Origin: a virus
DNA: 64,000 bases
Reading direction: 5' to 3' (one strand)
IMG/VR virus record: IMGVR_UViG_3300030329_005813
Coordinates: 1 to 64,000 of that record
In this document: positions 1 through 13,972 of the stretch, one piece after another
Position numbering within the stretch: position 1 is the first letter of the stretch
How the letters are laid out: the number at the start of each line of letters is the position of its first letter
The notes under the pieces: generated by a model
Seen by the model: only the letters and a program-made list of their open reading frames with translations
What the model was told of the DNA's origin: nothing
Databases searched by the model: none
Translations under genes and position numbers: made by a program

Positions 1-442
1 CATCCTTTACTACAACAGCATAATATCTTTTCCTACGGCGAGTAACGCCTTTATATTTGGAGCGCGTGCCATATAGAGATCCTTTCTTGGCACGAGGCTT
101 TCTAGAGTTCATCGAATTTTGACTATTGGTAACAAGTCGAAGGTTTTCTCTACGGTTATCTAGGCCATTACCATTGATATGATCCGTGTGTTCCTTCCGC
201 GTGAGCGGCCGACCAATTATTCTCTCCATAATAACTCTATGTAACCTTTTTGTTTGGCCATGATGATAAGGACTATTAGCTGCGTGCTCCTTATTGACCC
301 AGCACTTAGCGTAACACGTATAGTGATCACCGTGACGTTTTCTATTGCTATCGCAGAGTCTCCAAGACCACTGCGCCAAGTCGGCATCTTCATCACTGAT
401 AATCGCGACGCTTCCTTTGGTAAGTTTGATATCAATAGCCAT
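1..442 (-). CDS. HNH endonuclease with AP2-like DNA-binding domain, 3' end cut by window edge
   Basis: The open frame starts at ATG 442, five bases after a GGAGG ribosome site, and runs off the left edge (147 residues seen). Residues about 68-110 show the HNH core: LHRVIME, then H-T-D-H-I-N-G-N-G-L-D-N-R, then N-L-R-L-V-T-N-S-Q-N. After it, YKGVTRRRKRYYAVV matches the start of an AP2 DNA-binding domain. This HNH_3 plus AP2 layout is common in free-standing phage homing endonucleases. It is one of three HNH genes in the window and lies just downstream of the possible origin region. The missing C terminus prevents a check of completeness. Confidence 0.85.
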   Translation of the reverse strand, partial: MAIDIKLTKGSVAIISDEDADLAQWSWRLCDSNRKRHGDHYTCYAKCWVNKEHAANSPYHHGQTKRLHRVIMERIIGRPLTRKEHTDHINGNGLDNRRENLRLVTNSQNSMNSRKPRAKKGSLYGTRSKYKGVTRRRKRYYAVVVKD

Positions 443-870
443 ATCTTTCCTCCATATATAGCTTAACACACAGCGCTTAAAAAGTCAAATTCGAATTTCA
501 TATTTTGGGATTTTTCTGTGGGTGTAGTGAATGTATCAGCCCCGCTTTGCGCCGTACCGCCATATGGTACTTACATCCCGGTATATGGGGGGGAGGGGGG
601 GAGGAGGTACCGTCATAGTCTAGTTTCTTCCTTGTGGAAAACAGTTATCCATAGCATTATCGAGCAGTCTTATATAAGAGTTTAAACCTTTGTTATCATC
701 CTGGGGATAAAGTTATCCCTAGTCTATCCATAGGATAGTGAAAATAGAGATGCCCTAACCATCGGCCTTTTATTAAGGTTTGGGTAAGGGAGGGATAACC
801 TTTATTATCCGCTGTGGATAGCTGGGGATAGTTTATTAATAACCTTAGCCTCCACCATATATCCCTTGGA

Positions 871-899
871 AGGCCAACAATGCCGTAGCTGTGGACAAC
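871..899 (+). repeat. 29-bp imperfect direct repeat, copy 1
   Basis: This copy begins AGGCCAACAATGCCGT and ends in TGGACAAC. It matches the copy at 1116-1144 at 23 of 29 positions. All six differences are transitions, which fits an old duplication or a protein site with purine/pyrimidine specificity. Its right end carries a DnaA-box-like nonamer. Confidence 0.7.
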
Positions 900-1010
900 C
901 TGTGTATAAGCTGTGGGTTATTTGGTTGCAGCTATTCAACATATGCAAGAGCAGCATAGCCTGTCAACGGTAGGCCTGCAACCATATGCATAAATTAAAG
1001 ATATCGAGCC

Positions 1011-1019
1011 TGTGGATAA
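1011..1019 (-). promoter_or_regulatory. Perfect DnaA box
   Basis: TGTGGATAA on the plus strand is the exact complement of the DnaA box TTATCCACA. It lies within the nonamer cluster of the gene-free region. Confidence 0.55.
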
Positions 1020-1115
1020 AGTAATTAACAAATCGCTAGAGTGGAGTAAGAAACTTTATTATCGTCGGAAGGGGTTATCCATAGCTTTATCCATATGTTA
1101 AATAAAAAAGGTTGT

Positions 1116-1144
1116 AGGCCGATAATGCCGTGGTTATGGATAAC
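1116..1144 (+). repeat. 29-bp imperfect direct repeat, copy 2
   Basis: This is the second copy of the repeat at 871-899, starting AGGCCGATAATGCCGT and ending in TGGATAAC. It also ends in a DnaA-box-like nonamer, so the repeat unit carries the box at the same place in both copies. Confidence 0.7.
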
Positions 1145-1320
1145 ATAGGGTTGGTTGACAGGAGGGTTGTGTGTATGTATATTATCACCCACCCATTCTC
1201 AGCCTTTCTCCACCCCTATCCCTAACGTATCCTAACTCCCTTCTCTCTCCTCTCTATTCCTTCTCTATGAATACTTTCTCAGTGTTTTTATAAAAAGAAA
1301 GGGCCTAACTGACTTTATCT

Positions 1321-1329
1321 TGTGGATAA
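1321..1329 (-). promoter_or_regulatory. Perfect DnaA box
   Basis: This is a second exact TGTGGATAA (complement TTATCCACA). It follows a pyrimidine-rich stretch that has no coding potential. Confidence 0.55.
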
Positions 1330-1455
1330 ACCAATCAGACCCTACTAGTCTCATTATGCTGAATATGTTATTAATTCTTTATATTTTCTTTATATTTCTT
1401 TAGTCTCTATGTAAATGCTTGACATGTCAATGAAACGTCTTCCCACTTCATCCCA

Positions 1456-1674
1456 TTATAACCCACTTTGTTCCCTAATTCCCCCTTGTGGACTGATTGG
1501 GGACAAGAGACTATGTGATATAATAATTGTTTTATCAAGTCTCAAACTATAAACCGCATACGTTGTATATTGTTTGGGGAGTCCCGAAACATTTATTTTC
1601 TTGAATATGCATAGTCCTCCCTTTTCGCCGGTTTTGTATCGGAAAGACAACAATTGTCCTACTTTAAACTTCAC
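1456..1674 (-). CDS. GDLV-family small protein 1, last gene of the run
   Basis: This 72-residue protein starts at GTG 1674 and overlaps the preceding gene by 11 bases, with AGGA upstream. It opens MKFKVGQLLSFRY and contains YAVYSLRLDK where most relatives have V-Y-W-L, so the signature tryptophan is replaced by serine. It is a divergent member of the family repeated through 1456-4098. The length, the basic first residues and the alternating hydrophobic strands suggest a small beta-barrel (SH3 or KOW-like); that fold is inference. Function unknown. Confidence 0.7.
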   Translation of the reverse strand: MKFKVGQLLSFRYKTGEKGGLCIFKKINVSGLPKQYTTYAVYSLRLDKTIIISHSLLSPISPQGGIREQSGL

Positions 1675-1879
1675 TCTCGTCTTCCTGTGGATTGATGTGG
1701 ATAAGCGCTTTGGGTAGATATGCCATTGTGCATCCGTTGTTAAACCAATAAACGTCAATAACCGGGGTGCCACGGTAAGTTTCGCGGGTGTGAGCAACGA
1801 TGCCCCTTTGGGCCTGTGAAAGGTCACGGCCTAGTGCTGACGTCTTCGTGGCGACCAATTGTCCTCTTTCAAACTTCAT
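1664..1879 (-). CDS. GDLV-family small protein 2
   Basis: This 71-residue protein starts at ATG 1879 in an ATGA overlap with the preceding stop. Signature parts are MKFERGQLVATK at the start, R-G-I-V-A near residue 26, and I-D-V-Y-W-F followed by A-Y-L-P-K-A-L-I-H-I. The last part is typical: hydrophobic strand, tryptophan, then a strand ending the domain. It ends with an acidic tail (PQEDESEV). The overlap implies coupled translation. Function unknown. Confidence 0.8.
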   Translation of the reverse strand: MKFERGQLVATKTSALGRDLSQAQRGIVAHTRETYRGTPVIDVYWFNNGCTMAYLPKALIHINPQEDESEV

Positions 1880-2079
1880 TCTTGCATCTCGCCTGCTCGC
1901 ACCAAGGTTAACGCTGACTTGGGATAGCTTGCATAGTCTTGCGACTTGAGCCAAAAGACTCGCGTGTACCCGGCGAAACCTTCGGAATCGGGATTAACAA
2001 CAATACCACGTCCCTCTGCAAACCGTGGTGGGTCTGAATACTTTAAGTTGGCACGAACCAAATCTCCTGCTTTAAACAC
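1876..2079 (-). CDS. GDLV-family small protein 3
   Basis: This 67-residue protein starts at GTG 2079, eight bases after a GGGAG site and overlapping the preceding stop by eight bases. It opens MFKAGDLVRANLK, then has G-R-G-I-V-V and T-R-V-F-W-L-K-S with S-Y-P-K-S-A-L-T-L-V at the end. It is one of the clearest matches to the family pattern. Function unknown. Confidence 0.8.
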   Translation of the reverse strand: MFKAGDLVRANLKYSDPPRFAEGRGIVVNPDSEGFAGYTRVFWLKSQDYASYPKSALTLVRAGEMQE

Positions 2080-2272
2080 TGTTATTCTCCCTCATCCCTC
2101 TTAGGTGAATGTGATATACCCATTCCGTGGTCATATCCTGAAAGAAATATACATTCACGTTTCCCTCCCTGTCCATATCAATAACAAGACCTCTATCAAA
2201 GGGATTATTATATACATTGATCAATTGTCCGCGTTTGAAGCGCTTGATGCCTAAGCTATGAGTGGTCCGCAT
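2072..2272 (-). CDS. GDLV-family small protein 4
   Basis: This 66-residue protein starts at ATG 2272 with AAGGG seven bases upstream and overlaps the preceding gene by 17 bases. It has a nine-residue lead before K-R-F-K-R-G-Q-L-I-N-V, then D-R-G-L-V-I and V-N-V-Y-F-F, with phenylalanine in place of the family tryptophan. Function unknown. Confidence 0.75.
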   Translation of the reverse strand: MRTTHSLGIKRFKRGQLINVYNNPFDRGLVIDMDREGNVNVYFFQDMTTEWVYHIHLRGMRENNSV

Positions 2273-2468
2273 CCTTCACCCTTATAATGCTGTGTGATGT
2301 GAAAGTAATTGTGTTTCCCTTTGCTAACCAATATACATCATACCTTGAATACTTCTCATTGTATGCCTGATAACTCTTTCTTACAACAATCCCCAACCTC
2401 TTTGGTATACCACGGGGCTCACCGGTGAGCTTCTTGATGTATACCAACTCTCCTGGTTTGAACTCCAT
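2256..2468 (-). CDS. GDLV-family small protein 5
   Basis: This 70-residue protein starts at ATG 2468, which shares its A with the preceding TAA (TAATG). It opens MEFKPGELVYIKK, then R-L-G-I-V-V and Y-D-V-Y-W-L-A-K-G, ending S-I-I-R-V-K. It matches the family pattern in every segment. Function unknown. Confidence 0.8.
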   Translation of the reverse strand: MEFKPGELVYIKKLTGEPRGIPKRLGIVVRKSYQAYNEKYSRYDVYWLAKGNTITFTSHSIIRVKDADHS

Positions 2469-2710
2469 TATTCAATTCCTGAGATTGTATGCAAAAGCAG
2501 TGTTGAGAATGAACCAATCTTCATGTGTCTTAACCAATAAACATAAGCTATATCCTCACCTTTGTGCTCAAAACCCACGACAATCCCCTTGTCTCCGTTC
2601 TCCAACTGAATCAATTCTTTGGACATTGGGTAGCCAAACGGCGTCATCCAAAACTCTACTTTTGCCGTTACCAAGTCGCCAATCATAAAATTCTTCCGTT
2701 TTATGCTCAT
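2468..2710 (-). CDS. GDLV-family small protein 6
   Basis: The frame holds 80 residues from ATG 2710. A second ATG at 2686 (MIGDLVTAK), with GGAAG seven bases upstream, fits the family start better, so the first eight residues may not be translated. Further matches are D-K-G-I-V-V-G and A-Y-V-Y-W-L-R-H. The insert between strands is longer than in relatives. A gap of 54 bases separates it from the gene upstream. Function unknown. Confidence 0.75.
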   Translation of the reverse strand: MSIKRKNFMIGDLVTAKVEFWMTPFGYPMSKELIQLENGDKGIVVGFEHKGEDIAYVYWLRHMKIGSFSTLLLHTISGIE

Positions 2711-2764
2711 TGTGTATACCTGATGTGTTGTTCGGGGAAAAAAATGGCGCTGAAACCTTTGGTT

Positions 2765-2977
2765 CTATCTCGTATTTTCCACAACTTTTGTCAACTTATA
2801 AATATTAACCCATTCGGCGGGCCTGAACATCCTGGGCGGCCATAACACCCAAGTAACCTGGATTTTCATTCCATCTTGATCTAAAACAATTCCTAACGTT
2901 GCGCGGGGTGGCAAAACATCCTCGTGACGAACCATATCACCTTTGTTGAATTTGTGAGATTTGAGGCCGTCTTTCAA
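2765..2977 (-). CDS. GDLV-family small protein 7 (TTG start)
   Basis: This 70-residue protein starts at TTG 2977 in a TTGA overlap with the preceding stop. The only alternative, an ATG inside the motif, would remove the K-G-D segment. Matches are H-K-F-N-K-G-D-M-V-R, L-G-I-V-L-D and I-Q-V-T-W-V-L-W. The TTG start is chosen because the family motif needs it. Function unknown. Confidence 0.7.
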   Translation of the reverse strand: MKDGLKSHKFNKGDMVRHEDVLPPRATLGIVLDQDGMKIQVTWVLWPPRMFRPAEWVNIYKLTKVVENTR

Positions 2978-3174
2978 GATACCAACTCAACTTCGTTTAC
3001 GGTGGGACGAACCTTGCAAACTGGGTCCATTAACCAATAAACGTTCAATATAACTGTGTTATCGTCGGTGACTAACTCATCTCCGAAAACTTTGAGATCT
3101 TTTACCAAGCCTAAAAAGTGAGGGCTTCCATTTCTTAGGCGTACAATGCTGCCTTTCTTAATCTTCATTTTCAT
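2974..3174 (-). CDS. GDLV-family small protein 8
   Basis: The start is taken at ATG 3174 (MKMKIKKGSIVRL, 66 residues). A GTG one codon earlier and an ATG two codons later are also possible, and no strong ribosome site decides. Matches are K-K-G-S-I-V-R-L, F-L-G-L-V-K and L-N-V-Y-W-L-M-D. It overlaps the preceding gene by 17 bases. Function unknown. Confidence 0.75.
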   Translation of the reverse strand: MKMKIKKGSIVRLRNGSPHFLGLVKDLKVFGDELVTDDNTVILNVYWLMDPVCKVRPTVNEVELVS

Positions 3175-3376
3175 CACAATACACTCTTAGGCTTTGTGCG
3201 CCGTGGGTCGCAACGTAAGGCGTTTTCTCATAAGGGTGTTCAAACCACAATACTTTCCAACCAGTCCAATCAAATAACTTAAGTTGCTCCTCGGTGTCGG
3301 GAACAACGCCACGACAAAGCAAAATCCCCTTGAATCCAAATATATCCTTAAGTTTAACCAAGTCTCCTACTTTCAT
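3158..3376 (-). CDS. GDLV-family small protein 9
   Basis: This 72-residue protein starts at ATG 3376, ten bases after GGAG. It opens MKVGDLVKLKD, then C-R-G-V-V-P and W-K-V-L-W-F-E-H, ending S-L-R-V-Y. A gene-free gap of 122 bases lies upstream (3377-3498). The gap holds an inverted repeat of AAGGCCG/CGGCCTT but no T-run on this strand, so I do not call it a terminator. Function unknown. Confidence 0.8.
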   Translation of the reverse strand: MKVGDLVKLKDIFGFKGILLCRGVVPDTEEQLKLFDWTGWKVLWFEHPYEKTPYVATHGAQSLRVYCDENED

Positions 3377-3498
3377 AAGATTCAAACTCCAATAAATCAA
3401 AATCGTTTTTTAAGGCCGTTTTCGCTTCCGTGGCGGCCTTGGGCGGCTCTGATGAGTCCTTACCCTCTCGAAGCCCTGGAGGGCTCTCTAGGGCGTCT

Positions 3499-3765
3499 CT
3501 AGGGCTCGCTAGATGCCTTCTCGGGTGTCTGGTCCGCTGGAGCACCGACCCACAAAAGGTGGGCGGGTCTGACGGCTACATCGCCAACGTTGGGGAAGGA
3601 CGCCAAATAACCAGTATAATACTGATCTTTGTCCTCGCCCTTCCAAAACTCAACTTCGGCCTTGATAATTCCAATGCCGTATTCGTCAAACATACTATGT
3701 CGGACCAACCTACCTTTATAGGGGGTATTCGAATCGGTGACACCCCAACCTGAGCCTTTACTCAC
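3499..3765 (-). CDS. GDLV-family-like protein 10, longer variant
   Basis: This 88-residue protein starts at GTG 3765 in a GTGA overlap with the preceding stop. Segments are Y-K-G-R-L-V-R-H, Y-G-I-G-I-I-K-A, V-E-F-W-K-G-E and H-L-L-W-V. It has an extra strand segment and a loose polar C terminus (QTPEKASSEP). It is the least regular member, and family membership rests on order and spacing rather than identity. Function unknown. Confidence 0.65.
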   Translation of the reverse strand: MSKGSGWGVTDSNTPYKGRLVRHSMFDEYGIGIIKAEVEFWKGEDKDQYYTGYLASFPNVGDVAVRPAHLLWVGAPADQTPEKASSEP

Positions 3766-3932
3766 TTTAAACCTCCATTTTGCTTCGCTACACGACAAAA
3801 CCGAACGTCTTCGCGTGATGCTTCGCCGTAATCACACCAAAAAACCAAGATTTTATCTCCCTTTTGGTCCTCTAGGGCGACGCCGATAGCGTCTGACCCA
3901 TTCCATTTAATCAAATCACCCTTTCTAAGCAT
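3762..3932 (-). CDS. GDLV-family small protein 11
   Basis: This short gene codes for 56 residues from ATG 3932. It opens MLRKGDLIKWNG, then A-I-G-V-A-L-E-D and I-L-V-F-W-C-D-Y-G. Its first 29 bases, including the upstream flank, are identical to those around the next gene's start (4078-4106), so the two arose by tandem duplication. It overlaps the preceding gene by eight bases and ends in a GTGA overlap. Function unknown. Confidence 0.8.
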   Translation of the reverse strand: MLRKGDLIKWNGSDAIGVALEDQKGDKILVFWCDYGEASREDVRFCRVAKQNGGLK

Positions 3933-3940
3933 CTTTTTGT
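3912..3940. repeat. 29-bp perfect direct repeat spanning a gene junction, copy 1
   Basis: This segment is identical to 4078-4106. On the coding strand it holds the last codons of the upstream gene (K-D-A-stop in one frame) and the first codons of the next (M-L-R-K-G-D-L in another). It is direct evidence of recent tandem duplication of a GDLV gene. Confidence 0.9.
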
Positions 3941-4098
3941 CCTTTGTTAGATAAGACCTTAAGAAGCCGGATCTTCGTCCTCATAGCTTCGCTAAGATCG
4001 AACCAGTAGACCCAAACCCGGCTAGAAGGCGGGCTTTCGTCTTCCATGACGATACCGATGGCATGACTGTAATTGACCAAATCACCCTTTCTAAGCAT
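3925..4098 (-). CDS. GDLV-family small protein 12, first of the run
   Basis: This gene codes for 57 residues from ATG 4098. It opens MLRKGDLVNYSH, then A-I-G-I-V-M-E-D and V-W-V-Y-W-F-D-L-S. It is the closest relative of the next gene downstream. It overlaps the preceding gene by eight bases, in the same geometry as its own downstream overlap. Function unknown. Confidence 0.8.
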   Translation of the reverse strand: MLRKGDLVNYSHAIGIVMEDESPPSSRVWVYWFDLSEAMRTKIRLLKVLSNKGQKDA

Positions 4099-4106
4099 CT
4101 TTTTGT
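4078..4106. repeat. 29-bp perfect direct repeat spanning a gene junction, copy 2
   Basis: This is the second copy of the segment at 3912-3940. It spans the end of the 4091-4321 gene and the start of the 3925-4098 gene, so the C-terminal residues K-D-A of both upstream proteins are by-products of the duplicated junction. Confidence 0.9.
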
Positions 4107-4321
4107 TCTCTGCCAGATAAAGCCTTGAGAGCCCGGATCTTGTTGCAGCCGCAGATGGCCGCCACTATCCGGGGGTAACACGCCTTATGAATCGTAATAG
4201 CCAGCTTTCTACAGGCATCTTCCGTGGGTGCCTCTTTTTGGGCCGCGAAGAAGAGATGAAGCACTTCCTCGTCGTCTTCTTCTTCATTAATGGCTTTGAT
4301 CCAGTATTCTACGCTTTTCAT
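4091..4321 (-). CDS. Small helical protein of unknown function
   Basis: This 76-residue protein starts at ATG 4321 with GAGGAG five bases upstream. It opens MKSVEYWIKAINEEEDDEEV and looks mostly helical. It contains a C-x17-C-x10-C-G-C pattern (residues about 37-66) with no recognised metal-binding layout. It is not a GDLV protein but sits between the VWA gene and the GDLV run in the same operon. Its last three residues come from the duplicated junction. No family recognised. Confidence 0.7.
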   Translation of the reverse strand: MKSVEYWIKAINEEEDDEEVLHLFFAAQKEAPTEDACRKLAITIHKACYPRIVAAICGCNKIRALKALSGREQKDA

Positions 4322-4337
4322 AATATCTCCTCTCGAC

Positions 4338-5597
4338 CTAAACCGTGATTTCAAGTACTTTTTCGTGTGTCTTGAAGAAAGGTTGGGTTGCACCGTAAGA
4401 ATCGGTCATCCACATACGCTGACAATTGCTTGGAATAGGCTTTGGAGCGCACATATCGGTAAGAACGATGTGACCATCGAGCTTCTGGCTGTTGACATAC
4501 TCCGTTGGGGCGTTAAAGCAGGTTCCACCGTACATAACACGCTCCCAAGGCTTTTTCTGTCCTTTCTTCCAGGTAAATACGAGATCTTCGTTAACCGTAG
4601 TATCAAAGGGTACAACCACGAACTCGGCATACTTGGCCAAGGCTTCAAGCTCCGAAAAGAAGGCTGCAAGCATCGAATTCGAGACACTACCGGACTGGTC
4701 GATACTAATGGCGATACGGGCAACGCGCTCAGAGCGCTTACCGGCGTGAATGTAGGGGAAACGCCGATTAATACGCTTCACGGTTGAACGCCGATTAGCC
4801 TTTTGGCTGGCTTTAACAAAGGAACGAAGTACCTTTCTCCAATCAACCTTTGAAGTGATGGACTCCATAATGGTCTTCTTCATGCCGGCAGAAACGGAGC
4901 CCCAACCTCGGGTATTGGCTTCTTCGGCGGCCTTCTTGACCATATCCTTAAGGCGCTCCTGGGCGATTTGCTGGTTTGTACCTTCCTCACCGGCTGATGC
5001 CTCGCCCCATCCAGAGTGGTCGTCAAGCGGCTCGGCGTCGCTCATACCGCCGCCCGAACCTTCACTATCGGAATCGCCTGAACCTTCGCCAGAGCCACCG
5101 CCCCCGCCGCCCTCTTTCTCTTCAAGAATGAGTTTGTAATAGGCTTCTGCGGATAATCCCTCTGGAAGGTCGGCGAACGTGTCGCGGCCTGGAATGAGAG
5201 CCGAAGGCGGCAATTCATCAGGAATATGGGTGTTAATCGCGAGATCCATCGCGATGTTCCACGTCTTGTTGATACCCTCTTCTGGCTTTCTGGTGGTACA
5301 ATGCCCATAAATCAGGTGGTAGAACTCGTGCATCAAGATACCACGAACCCACCGATACTTATTGTTGGCGTTCTCCTTGGTTTCTCCGCACTCTTTGATC
5401 ATACGCTCCATAAAATCTGGATTATAAACCAGTTCAAACCGGCCTTCTTCGGTAACGGTAACGCCAGCGGTAGGAACCGTGGAACAAGCTCGTTTATCGA
5501 GCCGGCGCGAAAGAGCGGCGAAGAACGGCTCATCAGAGAGAAGCCGATGAGTGTGCATGTTGAGGTTGAAAGTAGCTTTTGGGGCTTTATCAGACAT
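4338..5597 (-). CDS. VWA-domain protein with metallopeptidase-like N terminus
   Basis: This 419-residue protein starts at ATG 5597 with GGAG ten bases upstream. An H-E-F-Y-H zinc motif (residues 90-94, in MHEFYHLIYGH) marks a metallopeptidase-like domain (DUF2201 N-terminal type). A glycine/serine/acidic linker follows (about 162-200). The C-terminal VWA-like domain has the metal site D-Q-S-G-S at 300-304. Proteins of this layout are usually encoded beside a MoxR AAA ATPase, as here (6467-7540), and may act as a chaperone or metal-insertion pair. It is the first gene of the operon that continues into the GDLV run, driven by the promoter at 5641-5703. The substrate is unknown. Confidence 0.85.
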   Translation of the reverse strand: MSDKAPKATFNLNMHTHRLLSDEPFFAALSRRLDKRACSTVPTAGVTVTEEGRFELVYNPDFMERMIKECGETKENANNKYRWVRGILMHEFYHLIYGHCTTRKPEEGINKTWNIAMDLAINTHIPDELPPSALIPGRDTFADLPEGLSAEAYYKLILEEKEGGGGGGSGEGSGDSDSEGSGGGMSDAEPLDDHSGWGEASAGEEGTNQQIAQERLKDMVKKAAEEANTRGWGSVSAGMKKTIMESITSKVDWRKVLRSFVKASQKANRRSTVKRINRRFPYIHAGKRSERVARIAISIDQSGSVSNSMLAAFFSELEALAKYAEFVVVPFDTTVNEDLVFTWKKGQKKPWERVMYGGTCFNAPTEYVNSQKLDGHIVLTDMCAPKPIPSNCQRMWMTDSYGATQPFFKTHEKVLEITV

Positions 5598-5640
5598 CAA
5601 GTAGACTCCAGAGTCGGGAACTTCCCCGACCATTACAGTA

Positions 5641-5703
5641 ATTATACACCCAAACGCCAACAAAGTCAAGATTTTTCTGCGCCCTTGACAATCTCTTTAC
5701 ATT
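5641..5703 (-). promoter_or_regulatory. Sigma70-type promoter with inverted TTGACA pair, for the VWA-GDLV operon
   Basis: On the minus strand, -35 TTGACT (5664-5669) and -10 TATAAT (5641-5646) are 17 bases apart. Upstream, 5684-5703 reads CTTGACAATCTCTTTACATT on the plus strand: the two half-sites of the shared promoter module, in inverted orientation. A weak plus-strand promoter there cannot be excluded. Confidence 0.8.
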
Positions 5704-5749
5704 CATTCTGATATTGTAGTTTGGATCGTTGATGGCCTTGTGGGCGACG

Positions 5750-5920
5750 TTATCCGCCGAACGTCCGGCAACGTGGGCAGAGCATCAGAAAGGGGTCTGT
5801 CGGGTCCGTGAAGGGGCCTAGAGAGCATCCCACAAGCTTGGACGAGTCAGTAATCGCCTGATGCCTGCTAGGGCCTCTAGAGGCTTCTATGGACGCGAGA
5901 AGAAGTGTTTCTGAGATCAT
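5750..5920 (-). CDS. Possible small Cys-rich protein
   Basis: This 56-residue frame starts at ATG 5920 with AGGA seven bases upstream. It ends F-L-M-L-C-P-R-C-R-T-F-G-G, a C-x-x-C pair as in zinc knuckles and ribbons. It begins directly after the terminator at 5941-5988, so transcription would need read-through. The surrounding DNA is rich in CTAGAG-like palindromes (for example 5873-5884), and the frame could be fortuitous. No family recognised. Confidence 0.4.
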   Translation of the reverse strand: MISETLLLASIEASRGPSRHQAITDSSKLVGCSLGPFTDPTDPFLMLCPRCRTFGG

Positions 5921-5940
5921 AGTTTATTCCTACATAAAGT

Positions 5941-5988
5941 AAAAGGCCCCGATTACCTAGATTTCAACCAGATAATCGGGGCCATTTT
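5941..5988 (-). terminator. Rho-independent terminator
   Basis: GGCCCCGATTA (5945-5955) pairs perfectly with TAATCGGGGCC (5973-5983) across a 17-base loop. On the minus strand it is followed by TTTTACTTT. It closes the short operon 6008-6264. A T-rich flank on the other side (ATTTTG) may make it bidirectional. Confidence 0.85.
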
Positions 5989-6007
5989 GAATTGCGAGGC
6001 GCTCACG

Positions 6008-6178
6008 TTACTCGCTCTCTGCTAGCCGAAGACGGCGTTGAAGGTACTCTATGAGATCTTCCGCTCCGTCATCGATATGTTCGTTCGTTTCGTTTTCGTG
6101 GAACCAAAGAGCGCCTATAAGGCTTTCAATCTGCTCTTTCGTCAAACTTAATTGAAAACGTTCGCTAGGCGATGCCAT
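6008..6178 (-). CDS. Small acidic helical protein
   Basis: This 56-residue protein starts at ATG 6178, sharing a base with the preceding stop (TAATG). It opens MASPSERFQLSLTKEQIES and contains D-D-G-A-E-D-L-I-E-Y-L-Q-R-R-L. The protein is helical and acidic. Translation is probably coupled to the 28-residue gene upstream. No family recognised. Confidence 0.65.
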   Translation of the reverse strand: MASPSERFQLSLTKEQIESLIGALWFHENETNEHIDDGAEDLIEYLQRRLRLAESE

Positions 6179-6264
6179 TAGGCCACCGAAAAACAAGCAA
6201 GAACGGGCATTACAGCGACGAAGACCATCAGAGTGTCCGCGTAATCGAAATAGTGATTTCTCAT
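6178..6264 (-). CDS. Very small membrane peptide (28 residues)
   Basis: ATG 6264 follows a strong AGGAGG site ten bases upstream and the promoter at 6294-6322. The peptide is MRNHYFDYADTLMV then FVAVMPVLACFSVA, so the second half is one hydrophobic segment long enough to span or enter a membrane. The stop is fused to the next start (TAATG). The good ribosome site and promoter argue that it is translated, either as a real peptide or as a coupling leader. Confidence 0.55.
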   Translation of the reverse strand: MRNHYFDYADTLMVFVAVMPVLACFSVA

Positions 6265-6293
6265 TTTATAGTTTCCTCCTAAATTATCAAGCC

Positions 6294-6322
6294 AATGTAA
6301 CAGGCCAAGGAATGTTTGTCAA
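6294..6322 (-). promoter_or_regulatory. Sigma70-type promoter
   Basis: -35 TTGACA (6317-6322) and -10 TACATT (6294-6299) are 17 bases apart on the minus strand. Unlike most promoters of this region it lacks the second TTGACA pair upstream. It lies directly after the tRNA-Lys gene. Confidence 0.7.
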
Positions 6323-6340
6323 GGTTAAAAGTAAAAAAAA

Positions 6341-6413
6341 TGGGATGAGAGGGGCTCGAACCCTCGACTCTCGGCTTAAAAGGCCGGTGCTCTGCCAACT
6401 GAGCTATCATCCC
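6341..6413 (-). tRNA. tRNA-Lys (anticodon TTT)
   Basis: The 73 bases fold as a full cloverleaf. The acceptor GGGATGA pairs with TCATCCC, the anticodon loop is CTTTTAA with TTT, the T arm is GAGGG-TTCGAGC-CCCTC, and the discriminator is A. CCA is not encoded. A T-run follows on the minus strand. Phage tRNAs often supplement codons rare in the host. Confidence 0.95.
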
Positions 6414-6466
6414 GTTAAAAGGTGCAATATGGCCCGCCCCTTATTAAGGGGCGAGCAAGCTAGCTT

Positions 6467-7540
6467 TTAGCCAACGATCTCAACAATGAAGTCAAGAACG
6501 GTCTTACCGTTGTTGGCGGTCGCAGAGTGAAGCGCGATAACGTTGGAGCTATCAGCAACTTGGCCGATAGAAGCGAAGAGCTTCATAGCAACCTCGGACG
6601 GGAGCGTCACGAACCAGTTAGCGAGGTTTTGAATCTGCGAGGAAGAAAGCGGATTCTCAAGAAGACCACTCGCCTCCAGCTTCTCGACGAGTGCCAAGTG
6701 GTCGTTAATACCGAAGTCAGCGGTCTTTTCGACCTGACCGTGATCGAGAATGTCCTCGATAGTGACGATACGCTCGTACTTTTCGCAGAAGTCACGGAAA
6801 GAGACAGCAGCCTCGAAGCCAACGAAGGCACACGCGAGATTATAGATAGAAGCAAGACTTTGCTTCGGCTCCGCGAGAAGACAAGCTCCATCGAGGGTTT
6901 TGTTGAAACGAACCCACGAGCGGCGTGAAGGATAGACCTTGTTCGGCTCGTAACCGCCGCCATCGGGAGTGTACTCCAGATGGGTGTGGTTCTGGTTGAT
7001 GAAGTCCCAAACCATAGGATCAACCTTGCCATTGGCCCAGGTGAGCCAGTCGGACACGGTGGGCTCGACGTCAAAGACGGTCCAGCGGTCAAGCTCGGCG
7101 GGGTCCATCTCACCGACCTGATAGGACGAAGCACCGGCATGCTCGCCACCGTTGACGGCTGCGAAAATGCGGGTTTCAGGGTGTAAATGCCACCCGTTCA
7201 GCTTGCGCGAATCGGTAAGCTCGAAAATACCCTGGCGAACCTCCATAGTAGCGCGGTCGACCTCATCGAGGAAGAGCACCACGGGATTATCGCAGGCTTC
7301 TTTGAGCCAGTCAGGGGCGTTCCAACGCGTGGACTCGCCGGTAATAGAGGGGAGACCCATAAGATCGCCCTCGGTCATCTGCGAGGCGCGACGCTCGACG
7401 ACGGGCAGGCCCAGGGACTGGGCCATCTGATAAACCAGTTCAGACTTACCAATACCGTGGCGGCCACGGACGAGAACGGGCATGCCGGCATCGACGACGT
7501 GAGGGATAACAGCGGAAAAAGTGGCGAAATCAACGGCCAT
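6467..7540 (-). CDS. MoxR-family AAA+ ATPase
   Basis: This 357-residue protein starts at ATG 7540 with GGAG nine bases upstream. Walker A is GRHGIGKS (26-33) and Walker B is VVLFLDEVD (87-95). Further AAA features are A-A-V-N-G-G (sensor 1) and E-M-D-P-A-E-L-D-R-W, as in MoxR proteins (AAA_5). MoxR ATPases work with VWA proteins to remodel or activate target complexes; the VWA partner is 870 bases away (4338-5597) under the same type of promoter. A GC-rich hairpin (about 6436-6452) lies between its stop and the tRNA-Lys gene. Confidence 0.9.
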   Translation of the reverse strand: MAVDFATFSAVIPHVVDAGMPVLVRGRHGIGKSELVYQMAQSLGLPVVERRASQMTEGDLMGLPSITGESTRWNAPDWLKEACDNPVVLFLDEVDRATMEVRQGIFELTDSRKLNGWHLHPETRIFAAVNGGEHAGASSYQVGEMDPAELDRWTVFDVEPTVSDWLTWANGKVDPMVWDFINQNHTHLEYTPDGGGYEPNKVYPSRRSWVRFNKTLDGACLLAEPKQSLASIYNLACAFVGFEAAVSFRDFCEKYERIVTIEDILDHGQVEKTADFGINDHLALVEKLEASGLLENPLSSSQIQNLANWFVTLPSEVAMKLFASIGQVADSSNVIALHSATANNGKTVLDFIVEIVG

Positions 7541-7585
7541 TTAGGAATTCTCCAGCGTCGAGGGGCATCCCCGACTTACTCTATA

Positions 7586-7641
7586 ATTATACACCCAATC
7601 AGGTACAAAGTAAAGGATTTAATTGTAAAGGAAATGTCAAG
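7586..7641 (-). promoter_or_regulatory. Promoter module with paired TTGACA boxes, for the MoxR gene
   Basis: -35 TTTACT (7609-7614) and -10 TATAAT (7586-7591) have a 17-base spacer. Upstream (7623-7641) the minus strand reads CTTGACATTTCCTTTACAA, two TTGACA-like boxes one helical turn apart. The block starts 27 bases before the -35 box, the shared module spacing. A GGCCGAG/CTCGGCC hairpin sits just upstream at the end of the preceding gene. Confidence 0.85.
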
Positions 7642-7666
7642 GCCGAGATGGCTCGGCCAACCTAGT

Positions 7667-8488
7667 TTATCGCTTCCTGGCCTTCTTGAGCCAACGCTCT
7701 TCGACGAAGACGGGCAAGACTTCACCGAAGAAAAGCACGGAGTAAACTTTACTTCCACGAGCAGGGCTAATAACCGGGGCTGCATTAGACTTGATGACAA
7801 CACCGGTTTTAGCTTGCATCTCGGAGATAGGGTACACGTCTGCGGCGTTGACGGCGCGGCGGATCTTCGCGTTGGCGCGAAGAGCTACGTGAGAACCGGC
7901 AGCAAACTTAGCTTCTGACAAAGTGCTCTCGATAACCTTGGTTGTATACTTGTTTTCGACCATCTTGGCATATGCCTTCTGGGAAGGGACAAATGTATCA
8001 TCTTCAATGGCTTTTCGCGCAAGATCACCGAAGTAAGGGGGATTTGCGAGGTAGTAGTGTGCAGCGATGATCATTTTCTCGCGCATCTCGGAAGTAAAGG
8101 AAGAAGCCCAGTTATCACGGACAGCCTGGGCCTCGTCGCTGTGACGAGCCTCGACCTTCGCGAGAATCTCCTTTTGACGCGGAGAAAGCTCACGACCAGC
8201 GAGAAGTTGGCCTCGAAGGCTGCCAATGAAGTCAACAGCCCAGGCGTCGCCAGCAATACGAGCGCGAAATTCTGTAGTTGAAAGCTGTGTTTCAAGCTCT
8301 TTCTCGATGGTCGCAGGTGGCGCGTTCAAGCGCTCCTCGATTTGCAGGAGACAACGCCGACGACCGGGCGACAGAGACTTACGTCGGTGGTAGTGCGTCT
8401 GAAGCGACTCCACGAAAATGCGCTCGCGACCTTGAATACGGGCGTCGGCGAGGATAGCGTCGAAGATGGGCTGAATACGTCGGGCCAT
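7667..8488 (-). CDS. Unknown protein with possible GDLV-like C-terminal domain
   Basis: This 273-residue protein starts at ATG 8488 with AGGAGAG six bases upstream. The first 190 residues are mostly helical and charged, including two S-P-R-R/Q-like segments (S-P-G-R-R, S-P-R-Q-K). The C terminus has G-S-H-V-A-L-R, T-G-V-V-I-K-S, K-V-Y-S-V-L-F-F-G and V-E-E-R-W-L-K, the order of strands seen in the GDLV proteins, so a fused copy of that domain is possible. It sits between the MoxR and zinc-knuckle genes, each with its own promoter module. No family recognised. Confidence 0.7.
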   Translation of the reverse strand: MARRIQPIFDAILADARIQGRERIFVESLQTHYHRRKSLSPGRRRCLLQIEERLNAPPATIEKELETQLSTTEFRARIAGDAWAVDFIGSLRGQLLAGRELSPRQKEILAKVEARHSDEAQAVRDNWASSFTSEMREKMIIAAHYYLANPPYFGDLARKAIEDDTFVPSQKAYAKMVENKYTTKVIESTLSEAKFAAGSHVALRANAKIRRAVNAADVYPISEMQAKTGVVIKSNAAPVISPARGSKVYSVLFFGEVLPVFVEERWLKKARKR

Positions 8489-8513
8489 GTAGTTCTCTCC
8501 TGTCTACCCCATA

Positions 8514-8569
8514 ATTATACACCCGATGGGGCCACGGGTCAAGAATCTTTTTGTCAAGAGAATGTTAAG
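8514..8569 (-). promoter_or_regulatory. Promoter module with paired TTGACA boxes
   Basis: -35 TTGACC (8537-8542) and -10 TATAAT (8514-8519) have a 17-base spacer. The upstream pair at 8551-8569 reads CTTAACATTCTCTTGACAA on the minus strand and begins 27 bases before the -35 box. It drives 7667-8488. Confidence 0.85.
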
Positions 8570-8597
8570 GCTTAAAACCTAGATATTTCCTTTAATA

Positions 8598-9314
8598 TTA
8601 CCAGATGCCAAGATCAAATGCCTCTGGGTCGAACTCCTGGGTGAACGCCCCATACATATCTTTCATCGAGTAGAGGTCTGACTTCTTATTCTTAAAAAGC
8701 TTGTGCAATCCTAGGGTTCCGTCCAAAAACTCTGGCGGGACCGTAGACCGAATACGATTTTCGTTGGTTCGAACTACAATATTGTAATCCACACCGAACT
8801 CATAGCCGGTGACGTTGCGCGGAAGGCGAGTCCTGGACCAGTACCTGTTGTCCAAAACGCCCTTAGATAGACGATTTTGGTCATCAGCGACGTCGACAAT
8901 GAACATCATCATTTGGCCTTTATTGGCGATATTGACCCGGTTCCAGTCGATACCAGTGACGAGCCACACGGTATCTTCGGCTTGAATCATCGAGCCTGGA
9001 CCGAAACCATGGTTAACCAACTTGTCGACAAATGCGCTTCGATACTTAGCATTGATGACGCGAAAGCTTTCGATTGCGTCTTTAAGCCTGGAACAACCTG
9101 CTCTATTGTGGCCTCGCTCGCCACAGTAGGTACAACGTCGATTTTTAGCCGATGCGGCCTTCTTCGCCTTCTGCGCGTCATAACGACGGACGAGGTAGGA
9201 ATCGGGGTCGATCTCGCGGCGGCGCTCAATATAACGCTTGTAAACTGGGCAACCAGCTTTGTTATGGCCGGTCGTGCCGCAGTGAGAGCAAGAGATGATA
9301 CGTTTATAGCTCAT
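8598..9314 (-). CDS. Protein with two CCHC zinc knuckles
   Basis: This 238-residue protein starts at ATG 9314 with GAGG five bases upstream. Two retroviral-type zinc knuckles are visible: C-S-H-C-G-T-T-G-H-N-K-A-G-C (about residues 9-22) and C-T-Y-C-G-E-R-G-H-N-R-A-G-C (about 61-74), both with exact C-x2-C-x4-H-x4-C spacing. Such knuckles bind single-stranded RNA or DNA. The rest has no recognised domain; a stretch with G-P-G-S-M-I and T-V-W-L-V-T-G may be a small barrel. It has its own promoter module. Confidence 0.85.
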   Translation of the reverse strand: MSYKRIISCSHCGTTGHNKAGCPVYKRYIERRREIDPDSYLVRRYDAQKAKKAASAKNRRCTYCGERGHNRAGCSRLKDAIESFRVINAKYRSAFVDKLVNHGFGPGSMIQAEDTVWLVTGIDWNRVNIANKGQMMMFIVDVADDQNRLSKGVLDNRYWSRTRLPRNVTGYEFGVDYNIVVRTNENRIRSTVPPEFLDGTLGLHKLFKNKKSDLYSMKDMYGAFTQEFDPEAFDLGIW

Positions 9315-9372
9315 TTTTTCCTCGAAAAGTAGGGATTCTGGGGTGTCGGGAACTTTCCCGACCGTTACAGTA

Positions 9373-9428
9373 ATTATACACCCAATCGGGTACAAAGTCC
9401 AGAACAAAATTGTCAATAGAATGTCAAG
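9373..9428 (-). promoter_or_regulatory. Promoter module with paired TTGACA boxes, for the zinc-knuckle gene
   Basis: -35 TGGACT (9396-9401) and -10 TATAAT (9373-9378) have a 17-base spacer. The upstream pair at 9410-9428 reads CTTGACATTCTATTGACAA on the minus strand. A GGGGC/GCCCC hairpin formed by the preceding gene's flank runs straight into the first TTGACA box, so a terminator and the next promoter share bases. Confidence 0.85.
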
Positions 9429-9456
9429 GGGCAAAAAGCCCCTTTAAAACTTTACT

Positions 9457-10179
9457 TTACGCAGCTAAAGGAACCAACATTTTGGCGCTGATGGTGCCCT
9501 CGCTCATTTCATCGAGCCAAAAAACAGTTATCTTGTAGTTTTCTAAGAGTTCCTGCTCCACGACAGACTTAACAATCCCCTTGCGGTGGGCGTCCGGGGC
9601 TGGAGGCCAAGCGACCCCAAGGGGCTGAACGAGATCACCAACCTTAAAAACGTAGGTAAATGGCTCCTTTTCTGGCGCTGGAGGGGCAGCCGCTTTGACG
9701 GCTGTATTGAGGCGACGCGCAGTCTTTGGCTTTGAACCTGTCTTTTTCTTGCGTGGCACCCATCGTTTCTTCGAGGGCTTGACAGGCAACGCGAGAAAAC
9801 CTTCATCGTTCGCCCGCTTTCGAGCAGTGCTGTAGGTTTTTCGCATCGCTTCGAGCAGGCGACCGGTGATAGCTTCCATATCACCCGTTCGGTTGATACG
9901 GGTGCTCTTGACCAAACCACGGCTTTGACCAGTACTATTAGTGTACACCGCGCAGACGCGAATGGCATCCTCCCCGACAGTACGCATCTCGCCGTTGAGA
10001 ATCGAGGTTAAAACTCGAATCTTAGCTGACCCGTTGGAAACTCCGTCGACGTCGCGGCAATACACATCTTCGTTTCTAGAGGGGCCTTCGAGAGAAAACC
10101 CGCTTCCTTTCAACATCTTCGCGATGCGCTTGGCGAGGGTCTTACGGTGCTGCTTATTGTTGGGGTTGTAGCGTGGCAT
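9457..10179 (-). CDS. Conserved phage protein fused to a C-terminal GDLV domain
   Basis: This 240-residue protein starts at ATG 10179 with GGAG nine bases upstream. Residues about 10-125 resemble a conserved phage hypothetical family (R-V-L-T-S-I-L-N-G-E, G-E-D-A-I-R-V-C, R-I-N-R-T-G-D-M-E). A basic linker follows (about 130-165, many K/R/P). The last 70 residues are a GDLV domain: F-K-V-G-D-L-V-Q-P, R-K-G-I-V-K and I-T-V-F-W-L-D-E-M. This is the clearest case of the domain attached to another protein. Function unknown. Confidence 0.8.
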   Translation of the reverse strand: MPRYNPNNKQHRKTLAKRIAKMLKGSGFSLEGPSRNEDVYCRDVDGVSNGSAKIRVLTSILNGEMRTVGEDAIRVCAVYTNSTGQSRGLVKSTRINRTGDMEAITGRLLEAMRKTYSTARKRANDEGFLALPVKPSKKRWVPRKKKTGSKPKTARRLNTAVKAAAPPAPEKEPFTYVFKVGDLVQPLGVAWPPAPDAHRKGIVKSVVEQELLENYKITVFWLDEMSEGTISAKMLVPLAA

Positions 10180-10205
10180 GTAGTGAATCTCCAAATTACA
10201 CGTAC

Positions 10206-10267
10206 ATTATACAGGAAAATGTCGTCAATGTCAAGAAGAATCTTCTCTCTTGACCTTCTCTTTACAT
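10206..10267 (-). promoter_or_regulatory. Promoter with inverted TTGAC pair
   Basis: -35 TTGACA (10229-10234) and -10 TATAAT (10206-10211) are 17 bases apart on the minus strand. Upstream, 10249-10267 reads CTTGACCTTCTCTTTACAT on the plus strand, the inverted form of the paired box, as at 5684-5703. It drives 9457-10179. Confidence 0.8.
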
Positions 10268-10284
10268 TTCAAAATTGCCCTCGT

Positions 10285-10479
10285 TTAACTTAGCTTTTTA
10301 AAAAGATCTGGATATTCCCAAACTTGCAGGCCGGTTTTGACCCACTGTATACGCATGCGGTCTGGTGGGTGCGGAGTTTTCATCGGCGGCTGTATTTCCA
10401 CGACCAAAGCCAATTTTTCGCCCTTGAATCTTATCCGCTGTACAGCGGCCTCAATTAAGTCTCCAGGTTTAAACTTCAT
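10285..10479 (-). CDS. GDLV-family small protein 13
   Basis: This 64-residue protein starts at ATG 10479 in an ATGA overlap. It opens MKFKPGDLIEAAV, then L-A-L-V-V-E-I and M-R-I-Q-W-V-K-T-G. It is the last gene of the second run of five. Function unknown. Confidence 0.8.
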   Translation of the reverse strand: MKFKPGDLIEAAVQRIRFKGEKLALVVEIQPPMKTPHPPDRMRIQWVKTGLQVWEYPDLFKKLS

Positions 10480-10664
10480 TTTTCTACCCTCACTAAATCT
10501 CTAAGATCAAATAGCTGTTTCTTCCCTACTTTTGGGCCAGTGAGCCATATGACCATAGCCTTCTCGATAATACGACCAGCACCGTAATCGAGCCTTTGAA
10601 CCTTGGCAATCGAGCCTAGAGCGAGTCTATTGCCCTTGTAGCAAACCAAATCACCTTTTTGCAC
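10476..10664 (-). CDS. GDLV-family small protein 14
   Basis: This 62-residue protein starts at GTG 10664, six bases after GGAGG and inside the preceding gene's last codons. It opens MQKGDLVCYKGN, then S-I-A-K-V-Q and A-M-V-I-W-L-T-G. The overlap geometry equals that of the next junction upstream, so the two are tandem duplicates. Function unknown. Confidence 0.8.
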   Translation of the reverse strand: MQKGDLVCYKGNRLALGSIAKVQRLDYGAGRIIEKAMVIWLTGPKVGKKQLFDLRDLVRVEK

Positions 10665-10881
10665 TTACAACCTCCAGATCCTGGTTCCAGTAGCGCCGGT
10701 AGTGTTGCTGTAGCATCGGGTGGACTTTATCAGTTAGAAACAGGACTTTAAAAAGAGTCGCTTCCGCTTTATAGGCCCAGTCGCTGGCGAGATGCTTTTC
10801 GATCTTTACGATCATAGCGAGCGAATTACTTGGAACACCGACGGAAGCTCGCTTTATTCGTACTAAATCACCGGGTCGCAC
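10651..10881 (-). CDS. GDLV-family small protein 15
   Basis: This 76-residue protein starts at GTG 10881, six bases after GGAGG. It opens MRPGDLVRIKRAS, then L-A-M-I-V-K-I and F-K-V-L-F-L-T-D, ending L-E-V-V-S-A-K-R. The codons of the final S-A-K-R contain the GTG start of the following gene. Function unknown. Confidence 0.8.
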   Translation of the reverse strand: MRPGDLVRIKRASVGVPSNSLAMIVKIEKHLASDWAYKAEATLFKVLFLTDKVHPMLQQHYRRYWNQDLEVVSAKR

Positions 10882-11053
10882 TGATCACCTCCAAATACTT
10901 ATCTTCAACAACTTCTTCTTTTTTTGCCGTTCCAAACCAGCGAACCATCCACCAACGTGGATGTTTTTTCCCGACGTATGCGGAGCGCAAAACAAGGCCG
11001 CGTGGACGTTGGCCTTCTCCGTAGGTTCTACGCACTATATCGCCGGGTTTCAC
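10868..11053 (-). CDS. GDLV-family small protein 16
   Basis: This 61-residue protein starts at GTG 11053, which shares its G with the preceding TAG (TAGTG). It opens MKPGDIVRRTY, then R-G-L-V-L-R and W-M-V-R-W-F-G-T, ending L-E-V-I-S-A-T-R. The last residues again encode the next start. Function unknown. Confidence 0.8.
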   Translation of the reverse strand: MKPGDIVRRTYGEGQRPRGLVLRSAYVGKKHPRWWMVRWFGTAKKEEVVEDKYLEVISATR

Positions 11054-11451
11054 TATTCACCTTCCGATTCTGCTGAAGGAATAGTCGAAAATTCATCGGC
11101 TTCTACCTCCGAAATCGTCAAAAAACCTCCAGGAAAAGCCGCTACAGCATCTTCCCAAGACATATCACCTGAAAGAAAAGATTGAAGCTCTTCTTTGGTC
11201 ATCTCGCTAATGTTAACAGTTAATTCTGTAGTTTTATTCACTGTTTTCTCCGAATGGTTGTTCAAAATTTCTAAATCCGAAACCCACGAAAACCAAGGTT
11301 TGGGCCGGGATATCCACTGAACCCAGCAGCACCACATACCATACTCATCCTCTTCTGAGTCCTTGATAACAATGCCAATACCTAGCTTTTTGGCGTCTCC
11401 CTCGACCGTTCCCGGCCTAGCCTTGACCAAAGTTCCCTTCTTAACTTTCAT
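11053..11451 (-). CDS. GDLV-family protein 17 with a C-terminal extension
   Basis: This 132-residue protein starts at ATG 11451 in an ATGA overlap. The first 70 residues are a GDLV domain (MKVKKGTLVKARP, L-G-I-G-I-V-I-K, W-V-Q-W-I-S-R-P). The other 60 are acidic, with M-T-K-E-E-L-Q-S-F-L-S-G and E-S-E-G-E at the end. The extension has no recognised fold. Function unknown. Confidence 0.75.
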   Translation of the reverse strand: MKVKKGTLVKARPGTVEGDAKKLGIGIVIKDSEEDEYGMWCCWVQWISRPKPWFSWVSDLEILNNHSEKTVNKTTELTVNISEMTKEELQSFLSGDMSWEDAVAAFPGGFLTISEVEADEFSTIPSAESEGE

Positions 11452-11762: not shown

Positions 11763-11785
11763 GCGGTTCTCCTGTTTACCCCATA

Positions 11786-11841
11786 ATTATACACCCGTGG
11801 GCCTACGAAGTCAATAGCGAAGTTGTCAAGCGAATGTCAAC
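11786..11841 (-). promoter_or_regulatory. Promoter module with paired TTGACA boxes, for the second GDLV operon
   Basis: -35 TTGACT (11809-11814) and -10 TATAAT (11786-11791) have a 17-base spacer. The upstream pair at 11823-11841 reads GTTGACATTCGCTTGACAA on the minus strand. The TGA of its first box is the stop codon of the preceding gene (11837-12259). Confidence 0.85.
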
Positions 11842-12259: not shown

Positions 12260-12317
12260 GATAACTCCATAATGGATGATTGATTTTTGGCCATTGGCCG
12301 ATTGCTAAGGTTAAAAG

Positions 12318-12402: not shown

Positions 12403-12412
12403 AGGTTGTAAG

Positions 12413-12495: not shown

Positions 12496-12523
12496 ATAAT
12501 TGTATTTGCCCTTGTTTTTTAAG

Positions 12524-12790: not shown

Positions 12791-12799
12791 AGTGTTCCT

Positions 12800-12976: not shown

Positions 12977-13000
12977 GTAGAACTCCTTTCTAGCCCCATA

Positions 13001-13970: not shown

Positions 13971-13972
13971 TT

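Follow-up and report, generated by a model that had tools for sequence, protein, structure and literature searches.

Interlocking arrays of small, predicted SH3-like barrel genes in a distant relative of the T4 phages

Why would a phage encode a dozen different versions of one very small protein side by side? The question is raised by a 64,000-nucleotide stretch of DNA (the window) that forms one part of IMG/VR virus record IMGVR_UViG_3300030329_005813 (172,361 bases, here G000). Twelve consecutive open reading frames (ORFs) of 56-88 amino acids (aa) lie on its minus strand at 1456-4098 (array 1), as an earlier, sequence-only reading of the window had described. Upstream of them lie genes for a DUF2201 metallopeptidase/VWA protein and an AAA ATPase. 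Array 2, also on the minus strand (10285-11451), has five genes, and in all the window holds about 20 family copies, with two or three elsewhere in G000. The explanation favoured here, with modest confidence, is a recombining cassette array that delivers diverse small binding proteins early, probably against host or defence factors. The cassette-array architecture is very well supported and its junction-driven shuffling is highly probable. Early binding of host or defence proteins by the products is put forward tentatively.

The family was followed into related phages by two routes. Fourteen related loci, with many family members in the flanks, were found via the neighbouring DUF2201 gene, and the DNA pattern of the gene junctions then brought at least 120 further IMG/VR stretches. 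An iterated profile search of these fetched loci recovers at least 1,371 distinct family ORFs at an expectation value (E) of 0.01, at least 1,278 at 1e-3 and at least 1,034 at 1e-5, spread over at least 120 distinct viral contigs; no reversed decoy is matched at any cut-off. Each of the 25 records counted holds 5-33 matches, and the longest run comprises at least 25 genes with small gaps allowed, or at least 12 if strictly overlapping or abutting.

The terminase of G000 is 45.5% identical to that of Flavobacterium phage immuto, 41% to that of Microcystis phage Mel-JY01 and about 33% to those of T4-like cyanophages, identities by which G000 is placed as a distant member of the T4 superfamily. 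A terminase is present in 21 of the 25 array-bearing records, the other twenty being 51-70% identical to that of G000, and these records are essentially one phage lineage. The phages are probably marine, judging from the titles of metagenome-assembled genomes (MAGs), one of which names Tara and the Red Sea, and from related phages. Tandem runs of one small family had been called rare in phages. All 25 array-bearing records checked contain them, but these belong essentially to one lineage, and the runs are unseen in the cultured phages tested.

The arrays are held together by the junction between one gene and the next. Among adjacent member pairs in the relatives, 625 of 883 overlap by exactly 14 nucleotides (nt), and the consensus TTGGAGGTNATCAGTGAAAGTCGGTGATTTGGT is common to 613 distinct junctions. 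Conservation is limited to about -12 to +23 (~35 nt) and fades to background over the next few bases in both directions. The upstream frame reads L-E-V-I-S-E-S-R-stop (LEVISESR), and the downstream frame reads M/V-K-V-G-D-L-V, with which the next protein opens and which includes its first strand. GGAGG inside the L-E-V codons is a Shine-Dalgarno sequence well spaced from that start. Because the junction encodes both frames, an SESR-type tail is the start of the next gene seen in the other frame. Such a tail ends 574 of the 625 genes with the 14-nt overlap, compared with 40 of 509 genes without an adjacent member, and another ORF starts there in 26 of 31 testable exceptions. Codons that the overlap does not force are also biased, Leu6 being TTG or TTA in 74% of junctions (40% elsewhere) and Lys2 being AAA in 87% (51% elsewhere). 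Among neighbouring non-family genes a 4-nt overlap dominates, with 14 nt in 4 possible cases. With three mismatches allowed, the junction pattern occurs in 2-22 copies per related genome, all on one strand, and once in G000 (two mismatches). A reversed control pattern is absent from the related records, and the junction pattern itself, at the same tolerance, from five reference phages. Non-family genes are joined at the junction as well, among them those for a DNA methylase, an HD_4 domain protein, a GIY-YIG nuclease and a SWIM protein.

Whole genes are exchanged at this sequence. When related contigs are aligned, 406 of the 521 alignment ends within family DNA (78%) fall in junction windows, which make up 20% of that DNA; the corresponding control, at the ends of other genes, is 18% versus 7%. 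Contigs L028 and L030 are more than 99.5% identical, and one whole gene (L028 8364-8543) is missing from L030, removed through ATGAAAGTCGGTGATTTGGT by a crossover within the shared start repeat. The near-identical L128 and L133 likewise differ by one whole gene (L128 4311-4490, missing from L133), again with the crossover in the start repeat. Compared with L071, L081 has one cassette exchanged for another, which in L071 sits further down that array. Gene order is fluid: a related downstream neighbour is kept by 7% of members that are 50-70% identical orthologues and by 21% at 70-90%, whereas other genes in the same loci keep theirs in 41% and 61% of cases. Similar members are only 1.4-2.4 times more frequent within one contig than between different phages, and on this ground the arrays are read as samples from a shared pool and not as fresh duplications. 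The best matches of members lie mostly in other records, and recent duplicates inside one contig are few. The sequence-only reading had missed what is most informative here: that the junction is conserved, that genes overlap by 14 nt and that modules are shuffled.

How far do the genes of the window itself fit this description? Nine of the eleven junctions of array 1 overlap (by 1, 4, 4, 4, 8, 8, 11, 11 and 17 nt) and two have gaps (m03/m04, 122 nt; m06/m07, 54 nt), so overlap at nearly every junction, as first described, holds. The shared opening, G-I-V segment and final strand also stand, the pattern K-x-G-D/E/Q-L-V ... G-I/L-V ... V-Y/F/L-W being matched by 11 ORFs of G000, ten of them true members, against a mean of 0.44 and a maximum of 2 in 50 shuffles. 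Leave-one-out profiles mostly link the members to each other, recovering m01 and m05-m11 (eight of the twelve) at E 1e-6 to 2e-3; m02, m04 and m12 score weakly (E 0.05-0.5) and m03 fails. A profile built without any G000 sequence (the independent profile) finds m01, m02, m04 and m06-m10 at E 3e-7 to 8e-4, with m11 at 0.013, m05 at 0.19, m12 at 1.4 and m03 at 1.9. Against a 15-member G000 profile built without it, m12 scores E 0.0025. Of the twelve genes first assigned to one unnamed family, eleven are thus supported; the membership of m05, m11 and m12 is based mainly on G000's own profile and on position, and that of m03 (E 0.3-1.9) is uncertain. The genes of array 1, with the gene before it, are:

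4091-4321, minus strand: m00, non-family gene upstream of array 1; overlaps m01 by 8 nt
3925-4098, minus strand: m01, member, 57 aa; independent profile E 4e-7
3762-3932, minus strand: m02, member, 56 aa; independent profile E 4e-5
3499-3765, minus strand: m03, doubtful member, 88 aa; motif and position only, profile E 0.3-1.9
3158-3376, minus strand: m04, member, 72 aa; independent profile E 3e-7
2974-3168, minus strand: m05, member, 64 aa, start may lie further upstream; leave-one-out E 0.001, independent 0.19
2765-2977, minus strand: m06, member, 70 aa; independent profile E 2e-4
2468-2710, minus strand: m07, member, 80 aa; independent profile E 6e-5
2256-2468, minus strand: m08, member, 70 aa; independent profile E 4e-6; AlphaFold five-stranded barrel, predicted local distance difference test (pLDDT) 85.8
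2072-2272, minus strand: m09, member, 66 aa; independent profile E 8e-4
1876-2079, minus strand: m10, member, 67 aa; independent profile E 1e-5
1664-1879, minus strand: m11, member, 71 aa; leave-one-out E 1.5e-6, independent 0.013
1456-1674, minus strand: m12, weak member, 72 aa; leave-one-out E 0.46

Array 1 has a junction version of its own: the m00/m01 border and the m01/m02 border both carry a repeat that includes ACAAAAAGATGCTTAGAAAGGGTGATTTG. It lies within a 69-nt direct repeat, 84% identical between 4073-4141 and 3907-3975, and the last 20 codons of m00 resemble the end of m01; the repeat is therefore why the unrelated m00 ends like m01. The same 69-nt repeat speaks for ordinary tandem duplication of one gene, with the similarity of the junctions as a relic. 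This is the least likely of the explanations considered: paralogues on the same contig are nearly as unlike as members of different phages, best matches lie mostly in other records, order is not kept, and plain duplication would not be expected to leave saturated interiors flanked by near-identical junctions.

Beyond the end of array 1, positions 500-1440 are non-coding and contain several TTATCCACA/TTATACACA DnaA-box-like motifs. A DnaA-box-rich origin beside the array was considered and set aside, the window having 4 TTATNCACA sites where 2.4 are expected, which is not significant.

In array 2, two of the overlaps are 14 nt long (10868-10881 and 10651-10664). With array 1, the C-terminal copy and the two single copies below, this array shows that the figure of 19 members first given was about right for the window:

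11053-11451, minus strand: n1, family domain at residues 1-64 plus a 68-aa extension; independent profile E 8e-11
10868-11053, minus strand: n2, member, 61 aa, C-terminus LEVISATR; AlphaFold pLDDT 91.4
10651-10881, minus strand: n3, member, 76 aa; independent profile E 1e-8; canonical 14-nt overlaps with n2 and n4
10476-10664, minus strand: n4, member, 62 aa; profile E 0.003, independent 0.67; 14-nt junction with n3
10285-10479, minus strand: n5, member, 64 aa; independent profile E 5e-5
10645-10675, minus strand: n3/n4 junction, nearest match in the window to the lineage junction consensus, 2 mismatches
9457-10194, minus strand: 245-aa protein with C-terminal family domain, about residues 182-245; independent profile E 1.7e-4
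15246-15416, minus strand: solitary member, 56 aa; independent profile E 2.5e-4
44542-44772, minus strand: solitary member (MKVGDRVRDR...); independent profile E 7e-4

In the 245-aa protein a basic linker precedes the C-terminal barrel domain, and the N-terminal 180 residues have no relative in the fetched loci. Outside the window the independent profile places copies at 159.5 and 169.0 kb of G000 and a borderline copy at 153.3 kb. Elsewhere, at 134-148 kb (L005, L006), G000 carries many genes of glycosyltransferase, sugar-nucleotide and methyltransferase-like type in one large block, as read from ORF starts alone.

What kind of protein does each cassette encode? AlphaFold models of n2 and m08, built from alignments of 44 and 86 relatives, are both five-stranded barrels (pLDDT 91.4 and 85.8). 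The strands of the n2 model are E6-9, E18-25, E34-39, E47-50 and E54-58, with a short 3-10 helical turn before the last. The top Foldseek neighbours are chromobarrel, Spt5 KOW, PWWP, ribosomal and R67 dihydrofolate reductase (DHFR) domains (template modelling score ~0.55-0.79, E 0.002-0.1, none below E 0.001), and weak profile matches in the PDB are nearly all SH3-like (PsaE, MIB1, eS4, L14e and NusG). Pfam gives no membership for the 86 members searched, each matched family being hit by one or two of them and never better than E 4e-4; KOW is matched by one of the 86 (E 0.036) and DUF2158, which is YodC-like, by one (E 0.019). In PHROGs the best matches (E 2.6e-4 to 6e-4, for 4-6 of the 86) are to families of unknown function and do not amount to membership. 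With SH3-like neighbours in Foldseek and the PDB and no home in Pfam or PHROGs, the predicted fold class is well supported and the proteins seem to belong to no known specific family. The first proposal of an SH3- or KOW-like barrel is thereby upheld, and its comparison with YorP-type proteins is not, the Pfam YorP family being absent from the matches of the 86 members at E 0.1 and of ten window members at E 1. The SH3-like superfamily (Tudor, PWWP, chromobarrel, DUF2158, DUF1918 and R67 DHFR) shares the five-stranded barrel and the pattern G-D-x-V ... G-x-V ... V-x-W, but significant sequence membership is lacking. An origin from R67 (type II) DHFR, raised by Foldseek, was rejected, since R67 scores E 47 against the family profile; its active-site motif VQIY, sought as VQ[IVL]Y, occurs in 2 of 1,368 members, isolated and most likely by chance.

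Within the barrel, a conserved core (G4, D5, L6, V7, G19, V37, W39 and L54-E-V) carries three loops of varying length whose entropy, ~4.0-4.2 bits, is near the maximum. A basic residue, R or K, occupies position 8 in 64% of members, and their net charges spread very widely around a value near zero (mean -0.7, standard deviation (sd) 4.3). These features bear on whether the barrels are instead nucleic-acid binders of KOW/Tudor-like type, whether coating the DNA of phage or host or acting on ribosomes or RNA polymerase, the many copies giving dose and sequence range. Spt5 KOW, single-stranded-DNA-bound PWWP and ribosomal KOW proteins among the fold neighbours agree with such a role, as does the basic position 8, and T4 MotB, a DNA-binding protein, is predicted to contain a KOW domain (PMC7827196). 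A uniform nucleic-acid binder would, however, hardly show so broad a near-zero charge, and the loops, the usual contact sites, are saturated. This explanation is considered rather unlikely.

Lone, distant family members occur at 58524-58685 of Cronobacter phage CR9 (L150; E 3e-6) and at 160794-160955 of LR756508.1 (L151; E 3e-4), another large phage. Five deposited phage records picked by terminase or weak match hold 0-1 members each by profile search, and tblastn gave nothing convincing among 50,697 phage records, whether the query was a single member, a consensus or 19 members joined together, a method by which short divergent proteins are hard to detect. Many of the top structural matches are BFVD entries A0A516M733, M741, M742, M749, M7N1, M7P1, M7Q1 and M7R5, and further ones are A0A516LBZ1, LBZ6, LC15 and LC30. 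Because these accession numbers adjoin, it is probable that several small barrels of this kind are encoded in just one or two deposited viral genomes. Contigs L142, L143 and L144, which carry array and junction, are binned in bacterial MAGs (Deltaproteobacteria, Flavobacteriales and Acidiferrobacteraceae); they are probably phage contigs and give weak hints of hosts.

Do the proteins matter to the phage? Outside the junction, members have a ratio of nonsynonymous to synonymous substitution rates (dN/dS) of 0.13-0.20, and other genes, in a small control sample, of ~0.09. The proteins are maintained by selection, as these values show. A contrary explanation is that the junction itself spreads and that easy recombination accumulates cassettes most of whose proteins do little, a selfish or near-neutral accretion. 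It would account for the entry of unrelated genes through the same junction and for a member dN/dS about twice that of other locus genes. Against this, the low dN/dS and the unbroken frames of over 1,300 members point to function, and few recent duplicates are found within one contig, so that accretion is judged quite unlikely.

The arrays lie apart from structural genes, among sigma70-like promoters, tRNAs, the DUF2201/AAA pair and accessory genes. Positions 1-16000 of the window have 40 promoter-like sites where 18.2 (sd 4.1) are expected, and contig L011 has 28 where 9.1 (sd 3.0) are expected. Two sites precede the arrays of the window:

5641-5669, minus strand: sigma70-like promoter TTGACT-17-TATAAT before the DUF2201 gene leading into array 1; consensus match only
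11786-11814, minus strand: sigma70-like promoter TTGACT-17-TATAAT upstream of array 2; consensus match only

Because strong sigma70-like promoters precede the arrays, what is known of T4-type phages suggests early expression. At 1113-7580 of L011, a repeated promoter unit, TAAAACTTTTATTTGACAATAAAGTTTT...TTGACT-17-CATAAT, stands before array segments and other small genes, its copies up to 97% identical. The DUF2201 metallopeptidase/VWA and MoxR-like AAA ATPase genes of the window (4338-8488), possibly a functional pair, have relatives near arrays in at least 54 and at least 55 fetched loci. A 140-aa protein at 11837-12259 has an N-terminal Phd/YefM-like antitoxin domain (Pfam E 4e-7).

This setting also bears on whether the proteins are interchangeable subunits of one multi-subunit assembly, for instance as decoration of the virion or as injected proteins. 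Oligomers can be built from SH3-like folds, as in the R67 DHFR tetramer, and many diverse copies share one operon. Placement away from structural genes, in an accessory region rich in sigma70-like promoters, and a copy number of 5-33 across related records make this very unlikely.

The favoured cassette-array explanation runs as follows. One cassette holds the gene of one small single-domain protein, a predicted SH3-like barrel with a conserved core and three near-saturated loops of variable length. In most relatives, adjacent cassettes interlock via one short junction that serves as C-terminus, ribosome site and start codon and, very probably, as recombination site. Because both borders of a cassette carry the same sequence, a crossover from junction to junction deletes or replaces a whole gene with the reading frame kept. 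Unrelated genes have come into the arrays by that junction too, and each phage has a different, largely non-redundant set from a shared pool. Transcription would be early and polycistronic, from host sigma70-type promoters, with translation by coupling. The products would be small binding modules for host proteins or defence factors, some possibly for nucleic acid, and shuffling would renew the set to the benefit of the phage.

Several points weigh against this explanation. Array 1 lacks the canonical 14-nt junction, which in the window is limited to two junctions of array 2. Most relatives were fetched by the junction pattern, which inflates the share of canonical junctions, although the first 14 loci, fetched by the neighbouring DUF2201 gene, also show it. 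The family limit is soft because the profiles were iterated, and the promoters are consensus matches only. The relatives are all metagenome assemblies, in which single indels may partly be errors of repeat assembly; the low synteny among 50-90% identical orthologues is not explicable by such errors. The expansion for variation against host targets supposed in the sequence-only reading agrees with the diversity of the loops and with the shuffling, but gene-averaged dN/dS is purifying, with no sign of positive selection, and no member is tied to any target or phenotype.

Short conserved boundary sequences at the gene borders of mosaic lambdoid phages, discussed in PMC3029335, similarly permit homologous exchange of modules through short gene-border repeats. 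Here, one junction recurs many times per genome, lies inside overlapping coding sequence, holds a ribosome site and a start, and flanks one protein family, so that shuffling occurs within the array. T4 MotB is a small, early, KOW-like protein that can act on host DNA, and its N-terminal domain is proposed to be KOW/Tudor-like (PMC7827196). The fold class agrees, but MotB has a second, OB-fold domain and does not sit in a large array.

Integron cassettes also form one-orientation arrays of exchangeable single-gene cassettes with a common repeat and diverse content, and the gain or loss of whole single-gene modules is seen here too (L028/L030, L128/L133 and L071/L081). In the phage arrays, however, cassettes overlap, the ribosome site lies in the previous gene, and no separate attC-like site is apparent between ORFs. 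No integrase partner was identified, though no search was aimed at integrases, and the exchange looks homologous. VSG, pilS and other surface-gene repertoires of pathogens are likewise diverse homologous sets renewed by recombination. Those genes are expressed one at a time, whereas all copies here appear to be co-expressed as an operon.

Neither the SH3-like fold nor the notion of boundary sequences behind phage mosaicism (PMC3029335) is new. No published description of such arrays was found in open-access full texts (subscription journals and preprints lay outside the scope), and by this limited literature search the locus type is apparently undescribed, in line with the proposal of an undescribed system in the sequence-only reading. 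A broader and distinctly tentative possibility is a diversity system in which a phage population continually reshuffles early anti-host or anti-defence SH3-barrel proteins with hypervariable loops from a lineage-wide pool. If true, a large set of proteins would stay exchangeable without a dedicated enzyme, since the sequence that ends one gene and starts the next would double as a recombination site. More than 1,300 unannotated proteins would be joined in one family, and some of what is unknown in large, apparently marine phages would be accounted for. The arrays would also offer a natural scaffold-and-loops library in which to look for inhibitors of bacterial proteins and defence systems.

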